A program made the position numbers and the translations under genes. Of a stretch of 64,000 nucleotides of DNA, positions 8,508 through 17,540 are shown piece after piece. Under the pieces are notes generated by a model. That model searched no databases and was not told the DNA's origin. It was given only the letters and a program-made list of their open reading frames with translations. Numbering within the stretch: position 1 is the first letter of the stretch; each line of letters begins with the position of its first letter. This DNA is from Glycomyces tenuis DSM 44171 (GTDB taxonomy: Bacteria > Actinomycetota > Actinomycetes > Mycobacteriales > Micromonosporaceae): contig NZ_KE386601.1 of the NCBI RefSeq assembly GCF_000427885.1, positions 50,115 through 114,114 on the forward strand, read 5' to 3'.

Positions 8508-9245
8508 TCACCGCAGTGCCGGTGCGGCGGAACCGATGTGTTCGCGGACCTGCCCGGCGAGCTCGTCGTAGTACTCGGAGACGTAGTGGAACGGGGCCAC
8601 GCCCCAGCGGTGCCCCGGGTCGGCCACCGTCAGCGCCGGGTTCGGCCGGACGGTGAGGGCCCGCTCACCGAGCGACGCCGTCAGGACCGCGTAGGCCCGT
8701 TCGAGCCAGGCGTTGGTCGCCTCGGCGCGCGCCCGATCCTCCAGGGCCCGCCCGTCGGCGTCGTGGGTCGCCCAGTACGCCCGGTGGACGACGACCGGCT
8801 GCTGCGGCAGGAGGGCCGCGAGCCGCCGGGAGGCCTCGGCGAAGGGGCCGTCATCGGCGAGTTCGGCGTCCTCGGGGACGGAAGTGAGGCCCTTCCGCTT
8901 CGCGAAGCCGGCCTTCTTGAAGTAACCGGTCGCCGTCACCAGGCCGAATCCGGTGTGAGCCAGCGGTGCCCGCTCGTCGATGAGATCGATGACCACGGGG
9001 TGGTCGATCGTGGGCAGGACCCGCGCGGCCGTCTTGTCGTGGTCTTGCGCCACCACTCTGCGCTGGAAGCCGGACTCGAGCCGGATCTCGTCCGGGTCGA
9101 TCGGGGTCGGTGTCGAGACGAGGCTCTGGACCCGGGTGCGGGAGAAGAAGTGAACCGGTGCCGGCAGGGGAGCCCGTCCGACGTCGCCGGCGTCCCGGGT
9201 GACACAGGATCCGATGAGGGAGTAGGTCGGGGAGGAGTTCGTCAT
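8508..9245 (-). CDS. DUF6270-like protein with GSCVTRD motif
   Basis: Predicted 245 residues from ATG 9245-9243, with GGAG about 9 nt upstream. It starts with a conserved block, YSLIGSCVTRDAGDVGRAP, and ends with DPGHRWGVAPFHYVSEYY. This pattern matches uncharacterised GSC-type proteins (DUF6270) found in surface polysaccharide loci. The early G-S-C, with a Ser at the end of the first beta strand, and the late D-x-x-H plus P-x-H resemble blocks I and V of SGNH hydrolases. An acyl esterase or transferase acting on the glycan is therefore a plausible but unproven role. No signal peptide or membrane helix is seen, so it is probably cytosolic. It is a close paralogue of the upstream gene 9371-10147, sharing RTR[VI]QS[LV]VSTPTPIDP. 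Confidence 0.65.
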   Translation of the reverse strand: MTNSSPTYSLIGSCVTRDAGDVGRAPLPAPVHFFSRTRVQSLVSTPTPIDPDEIRLESGFQRRVVAQDHDKTAARVLPTIDHPVVIDLIDERAPLAHTGFGLVTATGYFKKAGFAKRKGLTSVPEDAELADDGPFAEASRRLAALLPQQPVVVHRAYWATHDADGRALEDRARAEATNAWLERAYAVLTASLGERALTVRPNPALTVADPGHRWGVAPFHYVSEYYDELAGQVREHIGSAAPALR

Positions 9246-9370
9246 CGGCTGGGTCTCCTGCCAAGAGAGCGGCACGCCCGTGAAAGGTGTCAGGCCGACA
9301 GGCGGGGCACTTGGTCCGAACGCGCACCGCGCCGCGCCGGGTCGCCCCGGCCCGCCCCGCCGTCGAGTTC

Positions 9371-10147
9371 TTAGCCGGCCGCGGCCGAGCGGTAGAGCGT
9401 CGACGTGGCCGCGCGCTGCGCGGGCACGGGCGCGGAGAGCAGTGCGCGGACCTTCGCGGCGAAGAACTCGTGGTATTCCGCGATGAAGTGGACCGGCGCG
9501 TGGCCCCAGCGGCTGTTCGGGTCGGGCACGCGCAGCTCCTCGGGCATGTCGATGACGGTCGCCCGCGGGCCGAGCGCGCGAATGAACAGCTCGTAGGCCG
9601 GCTCCAGCCACGCGTTGTGCCGCTCGGACTCCTCGATCCGTCCGACCGGCTTCCCGTCGGCCTCGCGCGTGGCCCAGAACGTCCGGTGGACGATGATCCG
9701 CTGGTCCGGCCGCAGCAGCGCGGCGAAGCGGCGGCACGCCTCGGCGAAGGGGCCGTCCTCGCGCAGCTCGGTGTCCTCGGGCACTCGCGTGTAGCCTTCG
9801 CGGCCGAGGAAGTCCTGCTTGAAGCTGCGCGTGGCGGTCACCAGGCCGTGCCCGGTGTTGGTCAGCGGGAGCCGCTCGTCGCCGAGGTCGACCACGATCG
9901 GGTGGTCGAGGCGCGGCAGCGTCGTCGCGGCGGTCTTGCGGTGGTCGTTGAGGATGACCTGCCGGTTGAAGATGTTGTCGGTCGTGATCTCGGCCGGGTC
10001 GATCGGCGTCGGCGTCGAGACGACGCTCTGGATCCGGGTGCGCGAGTAGTACTTGACGGGCCTGCCCAGCGGGGCGCGGCCGACGTCGCCGGCGTCACGG
10101 GTGACGCAGGTGCCCAGCACGGAGTATCGCAAGGGTTCGGGGGTCAT
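9371..10147 (-). CDS. DUF6270-like protein with GTCVTRD motif
   Basis: Predicted 258 residues from ATG 10147-10145, which has AGGAAG about 10 nt upstream; a GTG at 10168 would add seven residues but lacks a site. It is colinear with the protein at 8508-9245. The first block reads YSVLGTCVTRDAGDVGRAP, so the position that is Ser in the paralogue is Thr here. The last block is DPNSRWGHAPVHFIAEYH. If the family is SGNH-like, this copy may have altered or lost catalysis. No transmembrane segment is seen. Because it follows the glnII terminator, this gene likely starts the transcript that leads into the glycan cluster. Function is unknown; the link to glycan modification rests on context. Confidence 0.65.
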   Translation of the reverse strand: MTPEPLRYSVLGTCVTRDAGDVGRAPLGRPVKYYSRTRIQSVVSTPTPIDPAEITTDNIFNRQVILNDHRKTAATTLPRLDHPIVVDLGDERLPLTNTGHGLVTATRSFKQDFLGREGYTRVPEDTELREDGPFAEACRRFAALLRPDQRIIVHRTFWATREADGKPVGRIEESERHNAWLEPAYELFIRALGPRATVIDMPEELRVPDPNSRWGHAPVHFIAEYHEFFAAKVRALLSAPVPAQRAATSTLYRSAAAG

Positions 10148-10267
10148 GCTCGAATCGCTTCCTGCCACGGATGGAACGAGAGTTATTCAACATACGACCC
10201 GGACGACTATATCAGGGCCATTGCCCACGAACACCGCCGAATGTGGGCGTTCGGCCGTAATTGGACA

Positions 10268-10331: not shown

Positions 10332-11345
10332 TCAGACCAGGCCTTTCCGCTCGAGAGCGCCGCAGACCGTGTCGACCATGAGGCGGGTCACGACGTAGGG
10401 GTCGCAGTTGGCGTTCGGGCGGCGGTCTTCGAGGTAGCCCTTCTTGTCCTTCTCGACCTGCCACGGGATGCGGATCGAGGCGCCGCGGTCGGAGACGCCG
10501 TAGGAGAACTGGCTCCAGTGGGCCGTCTCGTGCTGGCCGGTCAGGCGCTGGTCGATGCCGTCGCCGTAGCCCTCGATGTGCTCCTCGGCCTTCTCGCCCA
10601 GGGCCTCGCAGGCGGCGATGACCGGCTCGTAGTCCTCACGCATCGCCTTGGTCGAGAAGTTGGTGTGGCAGCCGGCGCCGTTCCAGTCGCCCTTGGCCGG
10701 CTTCGGGTCGATCGTCGCCGAGACGCCGAACTCCTCGGCGGTCCGGTACAGCAGCCAGCGCGCCAGCCACAGCGAGTCCGAGACCTCCAGGGCCGAGGCC
10801 GGCCCCACCTGGAACTCCCACTGGCCCGGCATGACCTCGGCGTTGATGCCCGAGATCGGCAGCCCCGCGGCCAGGCAGTTGTCGAGGTGCCGCTCGACGA
10901 TCTCGCGGCCGAAGATCTCGTCGGCGCCCACGCCGCAGTAGTAGCCGCCCTGCGGGGCCGGGTAGCCGCCCTCGGGGAAGCCCAGCGGCCGGGAGCCGAC
11001 CATGAAGGTGTACTCCTGCTCGATGCCGAACCAGGCCTCCTGCGAGGCGTACCGCTCGGCCACCCCGGCCGTCGCCGCGCGCGTGTTGCTCGGGTGGGGC
11101 GTGAAGTCGGTGTCGAGGACCTCGCACAGGACCAGCACGTGGTCGCCGCCCCTGATCGGGTCCGGCACCGTCTTGACCGGCCTGAGCACGCAGTCCGAGG
11201 AGTCGCCCTCGGCCTGGTTCGTCGAGGAGCCGTCGAAGCCCCAGATCGGCGGCTCCGCGCCGTCGGCGAGGACCTTGGTCTTGGAACGCAGCTTGGCGGT
11301 CGGCTCGGTGCCGTCGAGCCAGATGTACTCGGCCTTGATGGTCAT
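10332..11345 (-). CDS. glnII: type II glutamine synthetase
   Basis: Predicted 337 residues, close to the usual size of the eukaryotic-type GSII found in streptomycetes and relatives. It makes glutamine from glutamate, ammonia and ATP in the cytosol. Visible signatures are IWGFDGSSTNQAEG (GS beta-grasp region), WFGIEQEYTFM (metal-binding glutamates), INAEVMPGQWEFQVG, GAGCHTNFSTKAM (ATP/ammonia region) and DRGASIRIPW with the conserved arginines. It lacks the adenylylation loop of GSI enzymes. It is monocistronic, with a strong terminator downstream and a 17-bp dyad upstream that could serve nitrogen control. A main GlnA is expected elsewhere in the genome. Confidence 0.95.
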   Translation of the reverse strand: MTIKAEYIWLDGTEPTAKLRSKTKVLADGAEPPIWGFDGSSTNQAEGDSSDCVLRPVKTVPDPIRGGDHVLVLCEVLDTDFTPHPSNTRAATAGVAERYASQEAWFGIEQEYTFMVGSRPLGFPEGGYPAPQGGYYCGVGADEIFGREIVERHLDNCLAAGLPISGINAEVMPGQWEFQVGPASALEVSDSLWLARWLLYRTAEEFGVSATIDPKPAKGDWNGAGCHTNFSTKAMREDYEPVIAACEALGEKAEEHIEGYGDGIDQRLTGQHETAHWSQFSYGVSDRGASIRIPWQVEKDKKGYLEDRRPNANCDPYVVTRLMVDTVCGALERKGLV

Positions 11346-11422
11346 CGGGTGGGAGCCCCTCTCGTGATCGGCGGATGCACCGCCAAGCTCCCAAGACGCA
11401 ATTTCCCCTGCATTGATGACGT

Positions 11423-11439
11423 GTAAACAGTCTGTTAAC
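11423..11439. promoter_or_regulatory. dyad GTAAACA-GTC-TGTTAAC upstream of glnII
   Basis: A near-perfect inverted repeat (one mismatched pair) lies about 78 bp upstream of the glnII start, in an AT-richer stretch. GTTAAC-type half-sites recall the gTnAc part of GlnR boxes, but the full GlnR pattern is not convincing. It is a candidate operator for nitrogen regulation of glnII. Confidence 0.4.
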
Positions 11440-11597
11440 CGGTATTCGCCGAGGCCCGCGGCCGTTCGCGAGCCCTCATCACCCAAATTAGACCGAGAAA
11501 ATCCTGATCCTCCCGTATCCCTGATTCGACCAGTTTCGTTCTTCTAGATGCGGGCGGTGGTACCGCCCGCACTCAGGTTCAGGACGACGGGGGAGAC

Positions 11598-12608
11598 ATG
11601 GGGATCATCATGCGCGGCTGCGAGATCGCTCGCCGCCTCGATGTGCCCCGGCTCCTCCTCCGCGTCGCGTTCGCAGTGTTCGGCTCCCTGCTTCTCGGGG
11701 GCCTCGGCATGGCGACCGCCGCTTGGGCATCGGACGAGACCACCGAGGCGACAGACCTTGCCGCGGTGACAGATCCGCTCTCCGCAGAGGTATCCGACAC
11801 GTCGCGCCTGGTCGCGCGGCTGGTCCCGCACAACCAGCAGGGACATCGGGCGCCGGCGGTCGAGGGGACGTCACCGGGGCTGGTGTCGGGTCTGACCGAA
11901 CCGGTGGAATCGCTGGTGGAAGAGCAGGTGGACACCGTGCGAACGGTGCTGCGAAGCGACGAGCCGTCCGGCACGTCGAACGGCGAGTCTGTGGGAGACA
12001 GTGCCGCTGAAGTGGTGACACCGCTGCTGGGAACCCTGCTGAAGGAGACGGTCTCTGTCGTACAGAGCCCAGCCCCGGCGGTGTCCGGTGTCTACAAGAC
12101 TGTCGCGCCCGCGACCGATGAGGTCGACGTACTGGCGCGACTGGTGACCGATGGCCTTGTGCCGCCGAGCGACGCGACGCCACCCGGGGGCGTCCCCGCC
12201 ACCGGCCAAGGACAACCGAGCCTCACCACGCTTCAGCAGGTCACCGACTCCACCGAGGCGGCGGCGGCGTTCAGCGGAACGCCGGACGACCGGTCGGCCG
12301 CCGCCTTCGAGTGCGCTGCCGCCCCCCAGGGCGAGCAGCCGGCAGATCCGGACGACGCCTGGCGGCACGTGTCGCGCGCGGACGTCTCGCAGCCGTGGAC
12401 CGACCACGGTCCCGCGCTGCCCGGCCTGAAGATCATCCCCGGTGGAGCCACTGGCTCGAGCACCGGTGTCAGTGTGGACAGCGGCCAGACCGCTGTCGAC
12501 GTCTCCTCGTCAACCGACGGCGAACAGGTGTCGTTCGACCGTGCGGTGGACAGGGGATTGGGGCGACCAATGGACCGCGCCGCCGAGCTGTCCGTCGCCC
12601 CAGATTAG
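11598..12608 (+). CDS. secreted protein of unknown function, first gene of the chaplin-like array
   Basis: Predicted 336 residues from ATG 11598 with GGGGGAGA just upstream. A signal peptide or membrane helix is visible at residues about 18-45 (VAFAVFGSLLLGGLGMATAAWA). The rest is Thr/Ser/Pro/Val-rich and low in complexity, with Val/Leu heptad-like segments such as PLLGTLLKETVSVVQSPAPA and a single cysteine near position 232. No catalytic motif is seen. Long, Ser/Thr-rich, mostly disordered exported proteins are found beside chaplins and rodlins in spore-forming actinomycetes. The three following genes encode small secreted Cys-pair repeat proteins, so I infer an extracellular or aerial-hypha surface role. 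I do not recognise the family. Confidence 0.7.
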   Translation: MGIIMRGCEIARRLDVPRLLLRVAFAVFGSLLLGGLGMATAAWASDETTEATDLAAVTDPLSAEVSDTSRLVARLVPHNQQGHRAPAVEGTSPGLVSGLTEPVESLVEEQVDTVRTVLRSDEPSGTSNGESVGDSAAEVVTPLLGTLLKETVSVVQSPAPAVSGVYKTVAPATDEVDVLARLVTDGLVPPSDATPPGGVPATGQGQPSLTTLQQVTDSTEAAAAFSGTPDDRSAAAFECAAAPQGEQPADPDDAWRHVSRADVSQPWTDHGPALPGLKIIPGGATGSSTGVSVDSGQTAVDVSSSTDGEQVSFDRAVDRGLGRPMDRAAELSVAPD

Positions 12609-12613
12609 CGCCT

Positions 12614-12721
12614 CCGCGCGTCGACGCGCGGGAGCCGCAGTGCATTCGCAGTGCTCTTCGTTCCCACCGGTGGCAGCGTCCGGGGTCGCGACCCCGGCGG
12701 TGTCCGGCGCGTCGACGCGCG
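12614..12721. repeat. three GC-rich palindromes between the first and second array genes
   Basis: Three perfect palindromes sit in this gap: CCGCGCGTCGACGCGCGG (12614-12631), CCGGGGTCGCGACCCCGG (12680-12697) and a second GCGCGTCGACGCGC (12708-12721). The first and third share the core CGCGTCGACGCG. They could form hairpins in the transcript and damp read-through from the long gene into the small secreted-protein genes, or serve as binding sites. Nothing coding is seen here. Confidence 0.5.
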
Positions 12722-12821
12722 GTCAGGCCAGCACCGGCCGCCTTCGAGCGGAGGCCGGCCGGATCCAAACGAAGACGCCCGAATCATCGGGCGCACAACC
12801 GAGAAGGAAACGAACAGCATC

Positions 12822-13205
12822 ATGCGCAAGGTTCTCACCGTCGCAGCCGCCGCCGCAGGCGTCGCCGCGCTCGGCGCCGCCGCGCCCGCCATGGCTTTGG
12901 GCAGCAACTCCGGCGTCGTCGCCGGTGACCAGTCACTGGTCAACCTGGACGCCTCGAGCGCCGCCCACTGGCAGATCTGCGGTCAGAACATCCTGACCAC
13001 GTCGTTCGAGCAGAACTGCGACAACCGCGACCACATCGGCGAGGAGGGTCCGCAGTCCGGCGTCCTGGCGGGCGACCGCTCGCTGGTCAACGGCGACGTC
13101 TCGAGCCTGGCCCACTGGCAGATCTGCGGCCAGAACATCGGCGTCGCGCCGTCGCTGGCGCAGCAGTGCCTGAACTACGACCACGTGTCGGACGACGCCC
13201 AATAA
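12822..13205 (+). CDS. small secreted chaplin-like protein with two Cys-pair repeats
   Basis: Predicted 127 residues. A signal peptide (MRKVLTVAAAAAGVAALG, cut near AMA) precedes two tandem units of about 48 residues. Unit 1 carries GVVAGDQSLVNLDASSAAHW, then QICGQNILTTSFEQNC, and unit 2 carries GVLAGDRSLVNGDVSSLAHW, then QICGQNIG. Each unit has exactly two cysteines, likely a disulfide, and the sequence W-Q-I-C-G-Q-N. This resembles the CGN-V-x-V...GN-x-C core of chaplins, but with the cysteines closer together. It is probably exported to the cell or hyphal surface. It is preceded by an AAGGA site and followed by a hairpin before a close paralogue. A surface-active or adhesive role is inferred. 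Confidence 0.75.
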   Translation: MRKVLTVAAAAAGVAALGAAAPAMALGSNSGVVAGDQSLVNLDASSAAHWQICGQNILTTSFEQNCDNRDHIGEEGPQSGVLAGDRSLVNGDVSSLAHWQICGQNIGVAPSLAQQCLNYDHVSDDAQ

Positions 13206-13212
13206 GACCGTC

Positions 13213-13248
13213 GGGCGGGCCGGCCCTCGACGGGCGCACGGCCCGCCC
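13213..13248 (+). terminator. hairpin between the two repeat-protein genes
   Basis: Inverted arms GGGCGGGCC and GGCCCGCCC form a 9-bp stem with an 18-nt loop just after the stop at 13205. It may be a weak terminator or mRNA stabiliser between paralogous genes. Confidence 0.5.
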
Positions 13249-13277
13249 CGCTCATCGTTCGAGAAAGGAACCACAGC

Positions 13278-13697
13278 ATGCGCACCTCCACTGCCGCCGC
13301 CGCGGTCGCCGCCGGTCTCGCCGTGCTCGGCGCCGCCGCTCCGGCCATGGCGCAGAACTCCGGCGTCGTGGCCGGCGACCAGTCACTGCTCAACCTGGAC
13401 GCCTCCGACGCGCTGCACTGGCAGGTCTGCGGCCAGAACGTCCTGACGACGTCGGTCGACCAGAACTGCGACAACCGCGACCACATCGGCGAGGGACCCA
13501 ACTCGGGCGTCGTGGCCGGCGACCAGTCGCTGGTCAACGGCGACGTCTCGAGCCTGGCCCACTGGCAGGTCTGCGGCCAGAACGTCCTGGCGACCTCGTT
13601 CGGCCAGAACTGCGGCAACGCCGACCACATCGACGAGGACGACGGCCACGGCCACGGCCACGACCACGACAAGGGCGTCGACCAAGGCGACTTCTAG
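13278..13697 (+). CDS. small secreted chaplin-like protein with two Cys-pair repeats and His-rich tail
   Basis: Predicted 139 residues with AGAAAGGA ahead of the ATG. The signal peptide ends near AMAQ. Two repeats nearly identical to each other follow, each with NSGVVAGDQSL, then H-W-Q-V-C-G-Q-N-V-L, then Q-N-C. The second unit is the better chaplin match because the residue pair FGQNC mirrors chaplin FGN-x-C. The tail DDGHGHGHDHDKG is a likely metal-binding patch, perhaps for zinc, copper or nickel, absent from the paralogue at 12822-13205. Nucleotide similarity to that gene is high, pointing to recent duplication. It is likely exported and assembled on the cell surface. No such paired-repeat family is named to my knowledge. 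Confidence 0.75.
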   Translation: MRTSTAAAAVAAGLAVLGAAAPAMAQNSGVVAGDQSLLNLDASDALHWQVCGQNVLTTSVDQNCDNRDHIGEGPNSGVVAGDQSLVNGDVSSLAHWQVCGQNVLATSFGQNCGNADHIDEDDGHGHGHDHDKGVDQGDF

Positions 13698-13763
13698 CGC
13701 CGCGCAACGGGAACGCCCGCGCTCGGTCAGCACTCGTACCCGAAGGGGAGGTCGAAAGAGGAA

Positions 13764-14282
13764 ATGCGATACAAGACCATCGTCGCGGCTTCGGCCGCGG
13801 CCGCCGCCGCGGCGGCCATCCCGTGCGGGGCGGCTTCGGCCTCGACGCCGGACTGGCTGACGCTGGTGAACCTGAACACCGGAAACGCATCGCTGCTTCC
13901 GGCCGTGTGCGGAGCGGAATCCGCCGGAACGGTCGTCGACCCCGCCTGCGCGGGCGTCTTCGGAGCGCAGCCCTCGACCGCCGAAGCCTTCGGCGTCGAG
14001 CTGCCCGAGACGCCACAGGCTCCGCAGGCGCCGCCGACGTCCGGCGGAGGAGTGCCCACAGTGGCCAATGTCGACATGCGCGACTTCGCGAGATGGGAGG
14101 TCTGCGGCGTGGCCGCGGGCTCCACGACCGAGGACGTCACGTGCGACAACTCGGTTCCCGAGCGGCAGCCGATGGATCCCGGCAACGGCGTGTCGCTGGT
14201 GAACGCCGACACGAGCGGTGCCCTCAACTGGAGCGTCTGCGGCATCGCGGTGCTCTCCGAGGTGCACGCGTTCGACTGCTGA
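13764..14282 (+). CDS. secreted protein with diverged Cys-pair repeats
   Basis: Predicted 172 residues from ATG 13764, preceded by GAGGTCGAAAGAGGAA. A signal peptide of poly-Ala type ([20 protein letters not shown]) is present. Three degenerate units can be seen: WLTLVNLNTGNASLLPAVCG, VANVDMRDFARWEVCG and VSLVNADTSGALNWSVCG, each followed by a second cysteine 10-15 residues later. A Pro-rich linker (PETPQAPQAPPTSGGG) separates the first two. The shared V-N-x-D...W-x-V-C-G core links it to the two preceding genes, so it is a distant member of the same array. It ends right after the last cysteine and is followed by a terminator hairpin. Function is unknown; surface location is inferred. Confidence 0.7.
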   Translation: MRYKTIVAASAAAAAAAAIPCGAASASTPDWLTLVNLNTGNASLLPAVCGAESAGTVVDPACAGVFGAQPSTAEAFGVELPETPQAPQAPPTSGGGVPTVANVDMRDFARWEVCGVAAGSTTEDVTCDNSVPERQPMDPGNGVSLVNADTSGALNWSVCGIAVLSEVHAFDC

Positions 14283-14317: not shown

Positions 14318-14345
14318 GGCCGGGGGTCCGCCAGGACTCCCGGCC
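14318..14345. terminator. hairpin between convergent repeat-protein gene and GH95 gene
   Basis: Arms GGCCGGGGGTCC and GGACTCCCGGCC form a 12-bp stem (one G-U pair) with loop GCCA. It lies between converging genes and could end both transcripts. Confidence 0.65.
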
Positions 14346-14355
14346 AACCCCGTGT

Positions 14356-16614
14356 CTACTCCGGACTCCAGCGCTCCCCGGCCCCCAGCGCCAGCGGCCG
14401 CGGCTCCCGCCCCGGCACGGCCAGCCACACCCGCGTCTGCGCGGTGGCCTCGAGCTCCAGCTCGGCCACCGAGCCCGCCTCCCAGCGCAGGCGGCGCAGC
14501 GTCACCGCGCCCCTGGCGCGCAGCCCCGAGACCTCTCCGTCCGGCCAGGCGCCCGGCAGCGCCGGCAGCAGCTCGACCACCGGCACGCCGTCGACCGTCC
14601 GGTGCGACTGCACCAGCATCTCGGCGATCGCCGCGGTGGTGCCGAAGTTCCCGTCGATCTGGAACGGCGGGTGCGCGCACAGCAGCGAGGTGTAGACGCC
14701 CCCGTCGGAGTACTCCGCGTCGGACTTGCGGAAGCCGACCGGCGTGAGGAACTCCCCGAGCAGCCGGTGCGCCCGGTCCCCGTCGCCCAGCCGCGCCCAC
14801 AGCGCGGTCTTCCACGCCAGCGACCAGCCGGTCCCCGCGTCGCCGCGCGCCTCCAGGCTCCGCCTCGCCGCCTCGGTCAGCTCGGGGGAGTCGGCGAACG
14901 AGGAACCGGGGAAGGCCCCGTACAGGTGCGAGACGTGCCGGTGGTGGACCTCGGCCTCCTCGCGCTCGCGGGCCCACTCCAGGACCCGCCCGTCCGAGCC
15001 GATCCGCACCCCGGCCAGGCGCGGCAGCGCCTCGCGGACCTCGGCGACCACCGCTAGGAGCTCATTGTGGACGGTCTCGGCGACCACGTCCGCGGCCTCG
15101 AGCACGAACTCGAACAGCTCCCGCACGAGCGTCGCGTCCATCGCCGTCGTCTCGTCCACGGCCGCGTTCCCCTCGGGCGTGACGAACTCGTTCTCGGGGC
15201 TCGTGGCGGGATTGGTGACGAGCTCGCCGCTCTCGTTCTCACTGAGCCTGTCGAGCGCGAACCGGGCCGCGCCGAGCACCACCGGGAAGCGGTCGGCGAG
15301 GAACTCCTCGTCGCGCGTGAAGCGCCAGTGCTCGGCGATGTGCATGCACAGCCACAGCCCCGCCATCGGCCACGCCTGCCAGCAGGCGCGCCCGTCGCAC
15401 GGCGTCGTCAGCCGCCAGTAGTCGGTGTTGTGGTGGCAGCACCAGCCGCCCGCGCCGTAGAGCCGCCGCGCGGTCTCGGCGCCGGTGCGCGCCAAGTCGT
15501 CGACGAGGTCGAACATCGGCTCGTGGAACTCGGGGAGAGCGCACGTCTCGGCGGGCCAGTAGTTCATCTCGACGTTGATGTTCGTGGTGTAGTCGCAGTT
15601 CCACGGCGGGGTGACCTGGTCGTTCCAGATGCCCTGGAGGTTCGCCGCCTGCGTGCCGGGCCGCGAGGAGGCCGCCAGCAGGTACCGGCCGAACTGGAAG
15701 GCCAGCACCGGCAGGTGCTCGTCCGCCCCGCCCGCGGCGCGGCGCTCGAGCCGCCGGTCGACCGGCTCTCCGGCGCCGGCGCCGCCGAGGTCCAGCCGCA
15801 CCCGGTCCATGACGCGCCGGTGCTCGTCCACGTGGTCCCGCAGGACCGTCTCCCAGCCGTTCGCCGCCGCGCCGCGCGCCTCGCGCCGCACGGCCTCGAG
15901 TTCGGCGCCCGGCTCGTCGGTGCTGCGCATCGCGAGGAACACCACGACCTCGCGGCAGCCGGTGAAGCGGTGCCCGCGGGAGGTCGGCGCCACCTCGCCG
16001 TCGCAGCGCAGCTGCGCGTTGAGCGCGAGCGCGCGCACGCCGTCGGTGCTCGAGTAGTCCGGTGTCCCGCCGCGGACGCCGACCGGCGCGAAACCGGTGA
16101 ACGACAGCTCGTCGAAGTCGGCCTCGCTCGTTCCGTGCCGATGCGGCCATTCGAAGTCGAGCGCGAGGTCGAAGGCCTCCTCGGCGCTCCAGCGCAGCGC
16201 GAGGACCCCGAAGCGGACCGAGACGAGCGCCTCTTGCCGCACCCGGCCCCGCGCGACCCTCGCGACGCCGTCGCGCAGATCCAGTTCGCGCGTCTCGCCC
16301 TCGCCGTCGTCCGAGTGCGAGGCGAGCAGCGCTCCGGCCGGCTGGTAGGCCTGCGTGCTCTCGCCCTGGAGCCGCGTCACGAGTTGATCGGCCGCGAACA
16401 GCTCGCCGCGCCGCACCGCCTCGGCGGCCTCGGCCGCGACGCCTTCGACGCCCTCGGGGACGCTCCAATCGCCCCTGCCCGACCAGAACCCGTCCTCGTT
16501 GAGGGTGATCCGCCCGCCCTCGAGCATCGCGCCGATGCGGCCGTTGCCGATCGGCAGGCCCTCGTGCCAGGCGCGGGGCGGGGTGCCGTAGCTCAGTTTC
16601 AACTCGTCCGACAT
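14356..16614 (-). CDS. GH95-type alpha-L-fucosidase (or related glycosidase)
   Basis: Predicted 752 residues, typical for glycoside hydrolase family 95, whose members release alpha-L-fucose or alpha-L-galactose by inversion. The N-terminal beta domain carries LPIGNGRIGAMLEGG and LNEDGFWSG. The (alpha/alpha)6 domain has NLQGIWNDQVTPPWNCDYT and NINVEMNYWPAE, which holds the paired asparagines that activate water. HHNTDYWRLTTP and QIDGNFGTTAAIAEML contain other conserved active-site residues. No signal peptide is seen, so it may work in the cytosol on imported oligosaccharides. It is divergent from the LPxTG gene, and no transporter sits beside it. Substrate specificity within GH95 varies, so fucosidase activity is likely but not certain. 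Confidence 0.88.
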   Translation of the reverse strand: MSDELKLSYGTPPRAWHEGLPIGNGRIGAMLEGGRITLNEDGFWSGRGDWSVPEGVEGVAAEAAEAVRRGELFAADQLVTRLQGESTQAYQPAGALLASHSDDGEGETRELDLRDGVARVARGRVRQEALVSVRFGVLALRWSAEEAFDLALDFEWPHRHGTSEADFDELSFTGFAPVGVRGGTPDYSSTDGVRALALNAQLRCDGEVAPTSRGHRFTGCREVVVFLAMRSTDEPGAELEAVRREARGAAANGWETVLRDHVDEHRRVMDRVRLDLGGAGAGEPVDRRLERRAAGGADEHLPVLAFQFGRYLLAASSRPGTQAANLQGIWNDQVTPPWNCDYTTNINVEMNYWPAETCALPEFHEPMFDLVDDLARTGAETARRLYGAGGWCCHHNTDYWRLTTPCDGRACWQAWPMAGLWLCMHIAEHWRFTRDEEFLADRFPVVLGAARFALDRLSENESGELVTNPATSPENEFVTPEGNAAVDETTAMDATLVRELFEFVLEAADVVAETVHNELLAVVAEVREALPRLAGVRIGSDGRVLEWAREREEAEVHHRHVSHLYGAFPGSSFADSPELTEAARRSLEARGDAGTGWSLAWKTALWARLGDGDRAHRLLGEFLTPVGFRKSDAEYSDGGVYTSLLCAHPPFQIDGNFGTTAAIAEMLVQSHRTVDGVPVVELLPALPGAWPDGEVSGLRARGAVTLRRLRWEAGSVAELELEATAQTRVWLAVPGREPRPLALGAGERWSPE

Positions 16615-16793: not shown

Positions 16794-17540
16794 GTGACTT
16801 TCAAACAGCAAGCCTCCAAGACGATCGGTGCCCTGGGTCTGGCGGGCGCCGCCGGGCTCATCGGCGCGCTGGCGTTCGCCGCGCCGGCGAGCGCCGCGGT
16901 CGAGAGCATTCCGATCAACCCGGGCAACGTGCCGACCACGGCTGCCGGCTTCGGCCCGAACAACTGCGACCAGGTGCCCGACGACATCGCCGTCGACGAG
17001 GACGGCTGGGTGTTCGTGCTTCCGGCGGCGGCGGGGGCCGAGGGCAACTTCATCGAGGTCCAGGCCACCTTCGAGGACGCCTCGGGCGCGAGCCACACGC
17101 TCAACACCACTGACGACGGCGGGGTCGTCGACGGCCAGGGGGACAACAAGGCCTTCATCATCACGCCGGCCGGTTGGACGCTCGTCTCCGCCACTGCCGA
17201 CGTCGAGGACCCCGACCATGGCGCCAAGTTCAACCTGACCCACACCTGTCCGGGCGAAGAGGCCCCGGGCAGCGGGGTTCCCACGCCCGGCGACGAGAGC
17301 CCCACGCCCGGCGACGAGAGCCCCACGCCCGGCGACGAGACTCCCACGCCCGGCGGTGAAAGCCCCACCGACGGGACCACTTCGCCCGGCGGAGAAGTCT
17401 CCACCACGCCGGCCGGCTCCACCCTGCCGGCCACCGGCACTCCGCTGACCGTCGCCCTCGTCTCGGCCGCCGCCCTGGCCGCCGCCGGTGTCGTGCTGTT
17501 CGTCGTGATGCGGCGCCGCCGCGCGGCCGAGAACTGGTAG
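16794..17540 (+). CDS. LPxTG-anchored cell-wall surface protein
   Basis: Predicted 248 residues from GTG 16794 with GGAG nine nt upstream. It has a signal peptide (residues 1-35, ending APASAA), a globular part (about 36-155) with two cysteines that may pair, then a Pro/Glu/Thr spacer of seven-residue repeats PTPGDES, a sortase motif LPATGTP, a hydrophobic helix (VALVSAAALAAAGVVLFVV) and a basic tail RRRRAAENW. It is predicted to be cleaved by a class E or similar sortase and linked to peptidoglycan. No sortase gene is visible in the window. The 21-bp repeats encoding the spacer could vary in number. Function of the globular part is unknown. Confidence 0.85.
   Translation: MTFKQQASKTIGALGLAGAAGLIGALAFAAPASAAVESIPINPGNVPTTAAGFGPNNCDQVPDDIAVDEDGWVFVLPAAAGAEGNFIEVQATFEDASGASHTLNTTDDGGVVDGQGDNKAFIITPAGWTLVSATADVEDPDHGAKFNLTHTCPGEEAPGSGVPTPGDESPTPGDESPTPGDETPTPGGESPTDGTTSPGGEVSTTPAGSTLPATGTPLTVALVSAAALAAAGVVLFVVMRRRRAAENW
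17280..17362 (+). repeat. 21-bp tandem repeat encoding PTPGDES spacer
   Basis: About four direct copies of a 21-bp unit (CCCACGCCCGGCGACGAGAG plus one base) lie in frame within the LPxTG gene; the first three are nearly identical and the last is diverged. Such in-frame repeats can expand or contract and set the length of the wall-spanning stalk. Confidence 0.9.

Follow-up and report, generated by a model that had tools for sequence, protein, structure and literature searches.

Organization of the locus and its gene products

We examined a 64,000-nucleotide stretch of contig NZ_KE386601.1 of Glycomyces tenuis DSM 44171 (the window), in which four adjacent forward-strand genes, here designated lead, R1, R3, and D, encode secreted-type proteins. 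Together they form a conserved syntenic module with one invariant Cys pair per repeat unit and with its own promoter and hairpin leader. The lead gene (11598-12608) encodes a protein of 336 amino acids with a signal peptide, a low-complexity body, and an invariant C-terminus (GRPlDRAAELSVAPD), as anticipated in an earlier annotation of this DNA (the original prediction), which had a longer low-complexity secreted protein heading the set. R1 (12822-13205; 127 amino acids) is a secreted twin-repeat protein with units at 12903-13040 (C-x12-C) and 13041-13187 (C-x13-C). R3 (13278-13697; 139 amino acids) is of the same type, with units at 13356-13490 and 13500-13637, both C-x12-C, and its C-terminal part (13647-13694) consists of a His-rich tail and a conserved KGVDQGDF end. 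D (13764-14282; 172 amino acids) is a diverged three-unit secreted protein, with a degraded unit at 13842-13955 and further units at 14046-14162 and 14175-14279; the protein ends on the second Cys of its third unit. The N-termini of R1, R3, and D are signal peptide-like and end in AxA. The mature proteins are acidic (isoelectric points of about 4.2 for R1 and R3 and 4.05 for D), and Asn and Gln make up 17% of R1 and R3. The DNA of R1 and R3 is 82% identical, indicating that the two are duplicates.

The module is flanked on the lead side by a glutamine synthetase gene (10332-11486, reverse strand) and on the D side by a GH95-like gene (14356-16614, reverse strand). The gap between R1 and R3 (13206-13277, forward strand) contains a strong GC hairpin (-36 kcal/mol for the gap) that is possibly mRNA stabilizing. 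Behind D, between the convergent genes, is a 12-bp GC-rich, terminator-like hairpin (14318-14345, forward strand).

The two-Cys repeat unit

The repeat unit spans roughly 44 residues, of which the Cys pair and C-G are invariant and W, N, and D are near-invariant. The units of R1 and R3 follow the pattern (S)-x-V-x-A-G-D-x-S-L-V-N-x-D-x-S-x-x-x-H-W-Q-[IV]-C-G-Q-N-[VI]-...-Q-x-C-x-N. For every pair among the four R1 and R3 units and the last two units of D, the observed similarity score was reached by 0 of 1,000 shuffles, so the proposed sharing of a two-Cys repeat by these small secreted proteins is real. The strong divergence ascribed to the third repeat protein is equally evident in D, whose first unit is badly degraded and only marginal in the shuffle comparison with the other units. 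The spacing of 12 residues between cysteines given in the original prediction holds for most units, with values of 12/13 for mature R1, 12/12 for R3, and 12/12/12 for D; across all related loci, C-x12-C is found in 125 units and C-x13-C in 49.

No significant Pfam or NCBIfam match was found for the array proteins, in line with the earlier statement that no named family fits, and a PDB search likewise gave no significant match. AF2 models had predicted local distance difference test scores of 35 (R3 with 7 homologues) and 50 (a single unit with a 21-row alignment), values that are low and carry no fold information; the single-unit structure prediction that had been proposed as a check was thus uninformative.

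The arrangement H-x3-C-x12-C-x4-H, together with the His-rich tail, could make the units metal-binding modules acting as extracellular Zn or Cu scavengers. H-W-x-x-C and C-D-N-x-D-H are conserved in most R units, and the R3 tail contains HGHGHDH. However, several R units of three related loci (L042, L046, and L055), as well as D proteins, have other residues in place of His, whereas the two Cys residues are invariant, and a C2H2-like metal-binding site was rejected for this reason. The His-rich tail, although present in R3 as originally described, is weakly conserved and absent from most relatives; the conserved part is the KGxDQGD[FYWH] end. We consider metal scavenging highly unlikely.

Distribution and conservation among relatives

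A profile of the unit was run over the 355 genomes of the window's GTDB family and over wider samples drawn from the class (395 genomes), the order (399), and the phylum (396), the phylum being sampled rather than exhausted; E-values of these scans are per genome. True array members were found in 21 of the 22 Glycomyces genomes and in one genome each of three other genera of the family (G028, G033, and G740). Relatives of the window's genome known by name are Glycomyces arizonensis DSM 44726 and Glycomyces sp. L485. The profile search suggested in the original prediction thus shows a real family that is kept in spore-forming relatives. One further genome, G562, has a distant homologue in which W is replaced by V or L and P precedes C-G (HVPVCGVN). 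Outside the family, the class, order, and phylum samples gave only noise: those matches with E-values of 1e-4 to 0.05 that we read were fragments of other genes or nongenic frames. As judged from sequence, the array proteins are therefore a new repeat family of predicted secreted proteins, confined to one bacterial family. The literature searched contained nothing on the repeat family or on Glycomyces surface proteins.

In Glycomyces the gene order is conserved as glutamine synthetase, lead, two or three R genes, D, and the GH95-like gene, and both the number of R genes per locus and the number of units per R protein (2 to 4) vary between species. Between genera, R proteins are 58 to 76% identical. 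The KGxDQGD[FYWH] motif ends the last R protein once per locus at all 21 Glycomyces loci, and the terminal Cys is present in all 18 Glycomyces D proteins read. Of the 22 Glycomyces genomes, 21 have the lead gene, in each case adjacent to the array. Diverged lead genes, recognized by position and by their C-termini (IAPD and VAPD), lie directly upstream of the arrays of G028 and G740. Genome G034 encodes a 496-amino-acid lead homologue (locus L191, 5556-7046, reverse strand) with no repeat array nearby, indicating that the two do not have to function jointly, and the lead gene may predate its association with the repeat genes.

Putative promoter and leader of the lead gene

A putative promoter of the extracytoplasmic function (ECF) type, CGTATC-N17-CGTT (CGTATCC-N15-TCGTT), lies at 11514-11540 on the forward strand, 84 nucleotides before the lead ATG. 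When the upstream regions of the 19 Glycomyces loci with intact upstream DNA were aligned, CCCGTATCC-N15-TCGTT was invariant amid drifting surroundings, 84 to 86 nucleotides before the start codon. The related form CCGTATCC-N14-TCGTT precedes the diverged lead genes of G028 and G740 and also the array-less lead gene of G034, so that CCGTATCC-N14/15-TCGTT is common to 19 of 19 Glycomyces loci and three other genera. No internal promoter site with up to 2 mismatches was found in the three intergenic gaps of the array. A second conserved CGTATCC...TCGTT site, located elsewhere in most genomes, was set aside: it is invariant over its whole length and therefore looks like constrained sequence of another kind.

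The promoter is followed by a 57-nucleotide leader (11541-11597, forward strand) in which a 9-bp hairpin (11549-11557 pairing with 11563-11571) stands directly after the -10 element and ahead of a conserved ribosome-binding region. All 19 leaders preserve the hairpin, with 97.7% of cells paired and two pairs changed on both sides, and 4 of 500 shuffles were as good. When a model of the leader was searched against four Glycomyces genomes, the only strong match in each was the array locus, and three genomes of other genera had none; an Rfam search of the locus returned no family. Since the strong match is limited to the array locus in the genomes searched, a riboswitch class was rejected. On the simplest reading, the leader would be a 5' stabilizing hairpin for an abundant mRNA.

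Because the promoter and leader are those of the lead gene, this gene might encode the real developmental protein, and the R and D genes might be recently duplicated passengers of little function. The same promoter, with a leader hairpin, before the array-less lead gene of G034 fits this idea, as does the variable number of R genes and units. However, R and D are conserved between genera (for R, at the identities given above), with W/C/G/C invariant and the tails conserved, and we regard a passenger role as very unlikely.

BldN-type motifs in Glycomyces

The published BldN motif is CGTAACN16CGTTGA (PMC2375139). Written in this notation, the lead promoter is CGTATC-N16/17-CGTT across four genera: the -10 element is the same as at known BldN sites, the spacing is the same within one base, and the -35 element is one base off. 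A search of two genomes for CGTAWC-N16/17-CGTT found 20 and 19 sites, compared to 3 and 3 for the reversed pattern, a count that covers only CGTAAC/CGTATC-type motifs and one control pattern. In G018, a BldN-family sigma gene (NCBIfam TIGR02952, 208.5 bits against a cutoff of 206.45) is separated by CGTAAC-N17-CGTT from a DUF5667 gene in the rsbN position, and the site recurs in the window's genome (G000). In both genomes, CGTAAC-N16-CGTT also precedes a degenerate orphan response regulator, labeled as the BldM/WhiI type on the basis of its domains (GerE and a weak match to a receiver) and its promoter context rather than of a tree. These findings indicate that a BldN is present in the genus and that its consensus is in use there. 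In Streptomyces, the rsbN promoter is BldN dependent, and bldM, the chaplins, and the rodlins are BldN targets (PMC4255298, PMC4125116).

The proteins could instead be a secreted structural but nondevelopmental set, for general envelope, biofilm, or desiccation/osmotic-stress functions under another ECF sigma factor. The acidic, polar character of the mature proteins agrees with this, as do the T in place of A in the -35 element at every locus and the lack of the motif at the chaplin gene (see below). Pointing the other way are the limitation of the module to one bacterial family in which it is near-universal in Glycomyces, the -10 and spacing shared with BldN sites, and two BldN-type positive controls in the same genomes. 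A nondevelopmental set is a serious alternative that we judge to be rather improbable.

A further CGTAAC-N16-CGTT site was observed at G000:C8:40408-40433, about 9.7 kb before the window start, in front of a sugar-nucleotidyltransferase-like gene. The site is present in two genomes (loci L202 and L203) and lies each time about 20 kb upstream of the array; on this basis the gene is a possible further BldN target.

Relation to chaplins, rodlins, and other surface proteins

The original prediction described the repeat as a shortened chaplin. The defining feature of chaplins is a hydrophobic unit that carries two Cys residues and three GN motifs 12 to 13 residues apart (PMC13251363). The array units do have two Cys each, and like the chaplins (ChpA-H of Streptomyces) the array proteins are small and secreted, with a repeat of about 40 residues, two Cys after [VI]-C-G, and single or multiple units; the BldN-like promoter of the array also recalls the BldN control of chaplins in Streptomyces. 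The other features tested, namely, the PF03777 profile, the GN motifs, and hydrophobicity, argue against chaplin membership. PF03777 did not match the array proteins at E<=10, and a PF03777 search of the window's genome identified only a separate chaplin gene. An hhalign comparison of the units with chaplins of the same bacterial family gave probabilities of 8.0% and 5.7%, over only 9 columns around C-G, and 7 of 60 and 3 of 60 column shuffles with Cys and Gly fixed scored as well as the real comparison. The claimed correspondence of the VCG core and Q-N-C end to chaplins is therefore no better than expected from a common C-G...C. The array units contain 0.39 GN per unit, compared to 2.52 in chaplin units of the same family, and their grand average of hydropathy is -0.10 +/- 0.26, compared to 0.35 +/- 0.22. 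They also have a conserved W and D before the first Cys, which chaplins lack. The contrast drawn between a spacing of 12 and one of 17 to 19 in chaplins is not diagnostic, because chaplin units of this bacterial family are C-x13-C or C-x14-C, and those of Glycomyces themselves are C-x13-C.

True chaplins coexist with the array in the same genomes, with PF03777 matches above the curated cutoff in all 22 Glycomyces genomes. In the window's genome there is one chaplin protein with four chaplin units, away from the array (match C1:240276-240920; L064 2971-3996, reverse strand). This lone four-unit protein is an unusual chaplin set for a sporulating actinomycete. One of its units lacks the Cys pair, the spacing is C-x13-C, and no short chaplins were seen. 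Glycomyces chaplin genes have no BldN-type site within 400 nucleotides.

A very diverged chaplin branch that assembles into the same amyloid rodlet sheath would account for the common arrangement [VI]-C-G-[NQ]-x-[VI]...C, the similar spacing in Glycomyces chaplins, the similar size of the secreted repeats, and the BldN-like promoter. Such a branch is unlikely given the lack of a PF03777 match at E<=10, the hhalign results, which are indistinguishable from Cys/Gly-preserving shuffles, the paucity of GN motifs, the lower hydrophobicity, and the coexistence of real chaplins.

Rodlins (RdlA and RdlB) resemble the array proteins in being secreted, in having about 100 mature residues, and in being encoded by adjacent genes that in Streptomyces are BldN targets. 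However, rodlins have no internal two-Cys repeat, and the window proteins had no match to the rodlin model NF041022 at E<=10 and only a chance-level pairwise E-value of 0.6, so a rodlin identity was rejected; an RdlA sequence matched the model at 5e-57. CwpA and CwpB of Actinoplanes missouriensis, from the same wider actinomycete group, are nonchaplin surface proteins with a chaplin-like job in surface hydrophobicity (PMC13251363). They are sortase-anchored single proteins, whereas the array proteins are a repeat family; no LPXTG-type anchor was found in the lead, R, or D proteins by Pfam, and Gram_pos_anchor matched only the neighboring product of 16794-17540.

Proposed function of the module

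We propose that the module is an operon under developmental control whose products are disulfide-bonded structural proteins at the surface of aerial hyphae or spores, a reading to which we assign a probability of about 0.5. The promoter would be recognized by BldN, the ECF sigma factor of aerial development, or by a sigma factor of similar specificity, and the operon would thus be switched on when aerial hyphae form, with the set cotranscribed from the lead promoter. The proteins would be exported by Sec, one disulfide would close in each unit, and the products would be built into the envelope of aerial hyphae or spores as structural parts, together with the chaplin encoded elsewhere in the genome. 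The lead protein may serve as an organizer or anchor and the R proteins as bulk subunits, while the tail-bearing R copy (KGxDQGD[FY]) and D could be end or adaptor subunits. Among these inferred steps, support decreases from cotranscription through ECF control in aerial development, the intraunit disulfide, and surface incorporation to the division of labor among lead, R, and D. Of the suggestion in the original prediction that this could be a new class of surface or amyloid-like protein, the new family stands, and the promoter evidence raises the likelihood of a role at the developing cell surface.

Several observations weigh against this proposal. At every locus the -35 element reads CGTATC rather than CGTAAC, which leaves room for a different ECF sigma factor, and it is by inference that we name BldN. 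The chaplin genes lack a BldN-type site, and coregulation with chaplins is thus not seen. The G034 lead gene exists without an array, the units are not very hydrophobic, and the motif count has the narrow scope given above.

To our knowledge, Streptomyces is the only filamentous actinomycete in which the surface proteins for aerial growth (chaplins, rodlins, and SapB) have been characterized in detail. As a more tentative extension, the array may represent a class of aerial-sheath proteins independent of chaplins and rodlins. In Glycomyces and the nearest genera, the BldN-type promoter would then drive the two-Cys module rather than the chaplin gene, which would mean that the surface proteins for aerial growth arose, or were exchanged, separately from those of Streptomyces. 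If so, the regulator would be ancient and the coat proteins under its control exchangeable. Four genes and one promoter make a compact, directly testable set, and for materials work the unit is a candidate for a new, small disulfide repeat.

Neighboring features

The secreted LPXTG-type protein encoded at 16794-17540, beside the GH95-like gene, matches Gram_pos_anchor above the cutoff, and one to three tandem copies of its gene occupy the same place in relatives. At 8508-10168 on the reverse strand, two adjacent paralogous genes share the motif S-x-x-G-[ST]-C-V-T-R-D-A-G-D-V-G-R-A, and a related pair also lies near the array at locus L052. Between the glutamine synthetase and lead genes, at 11422-11440, is a dyad, TGTAAACAGTCTGTTAACC, that is conserved in Glycomyces and probably serves the glutamine synthetase gene as a site for a GlnR-like nitrogen regulator.

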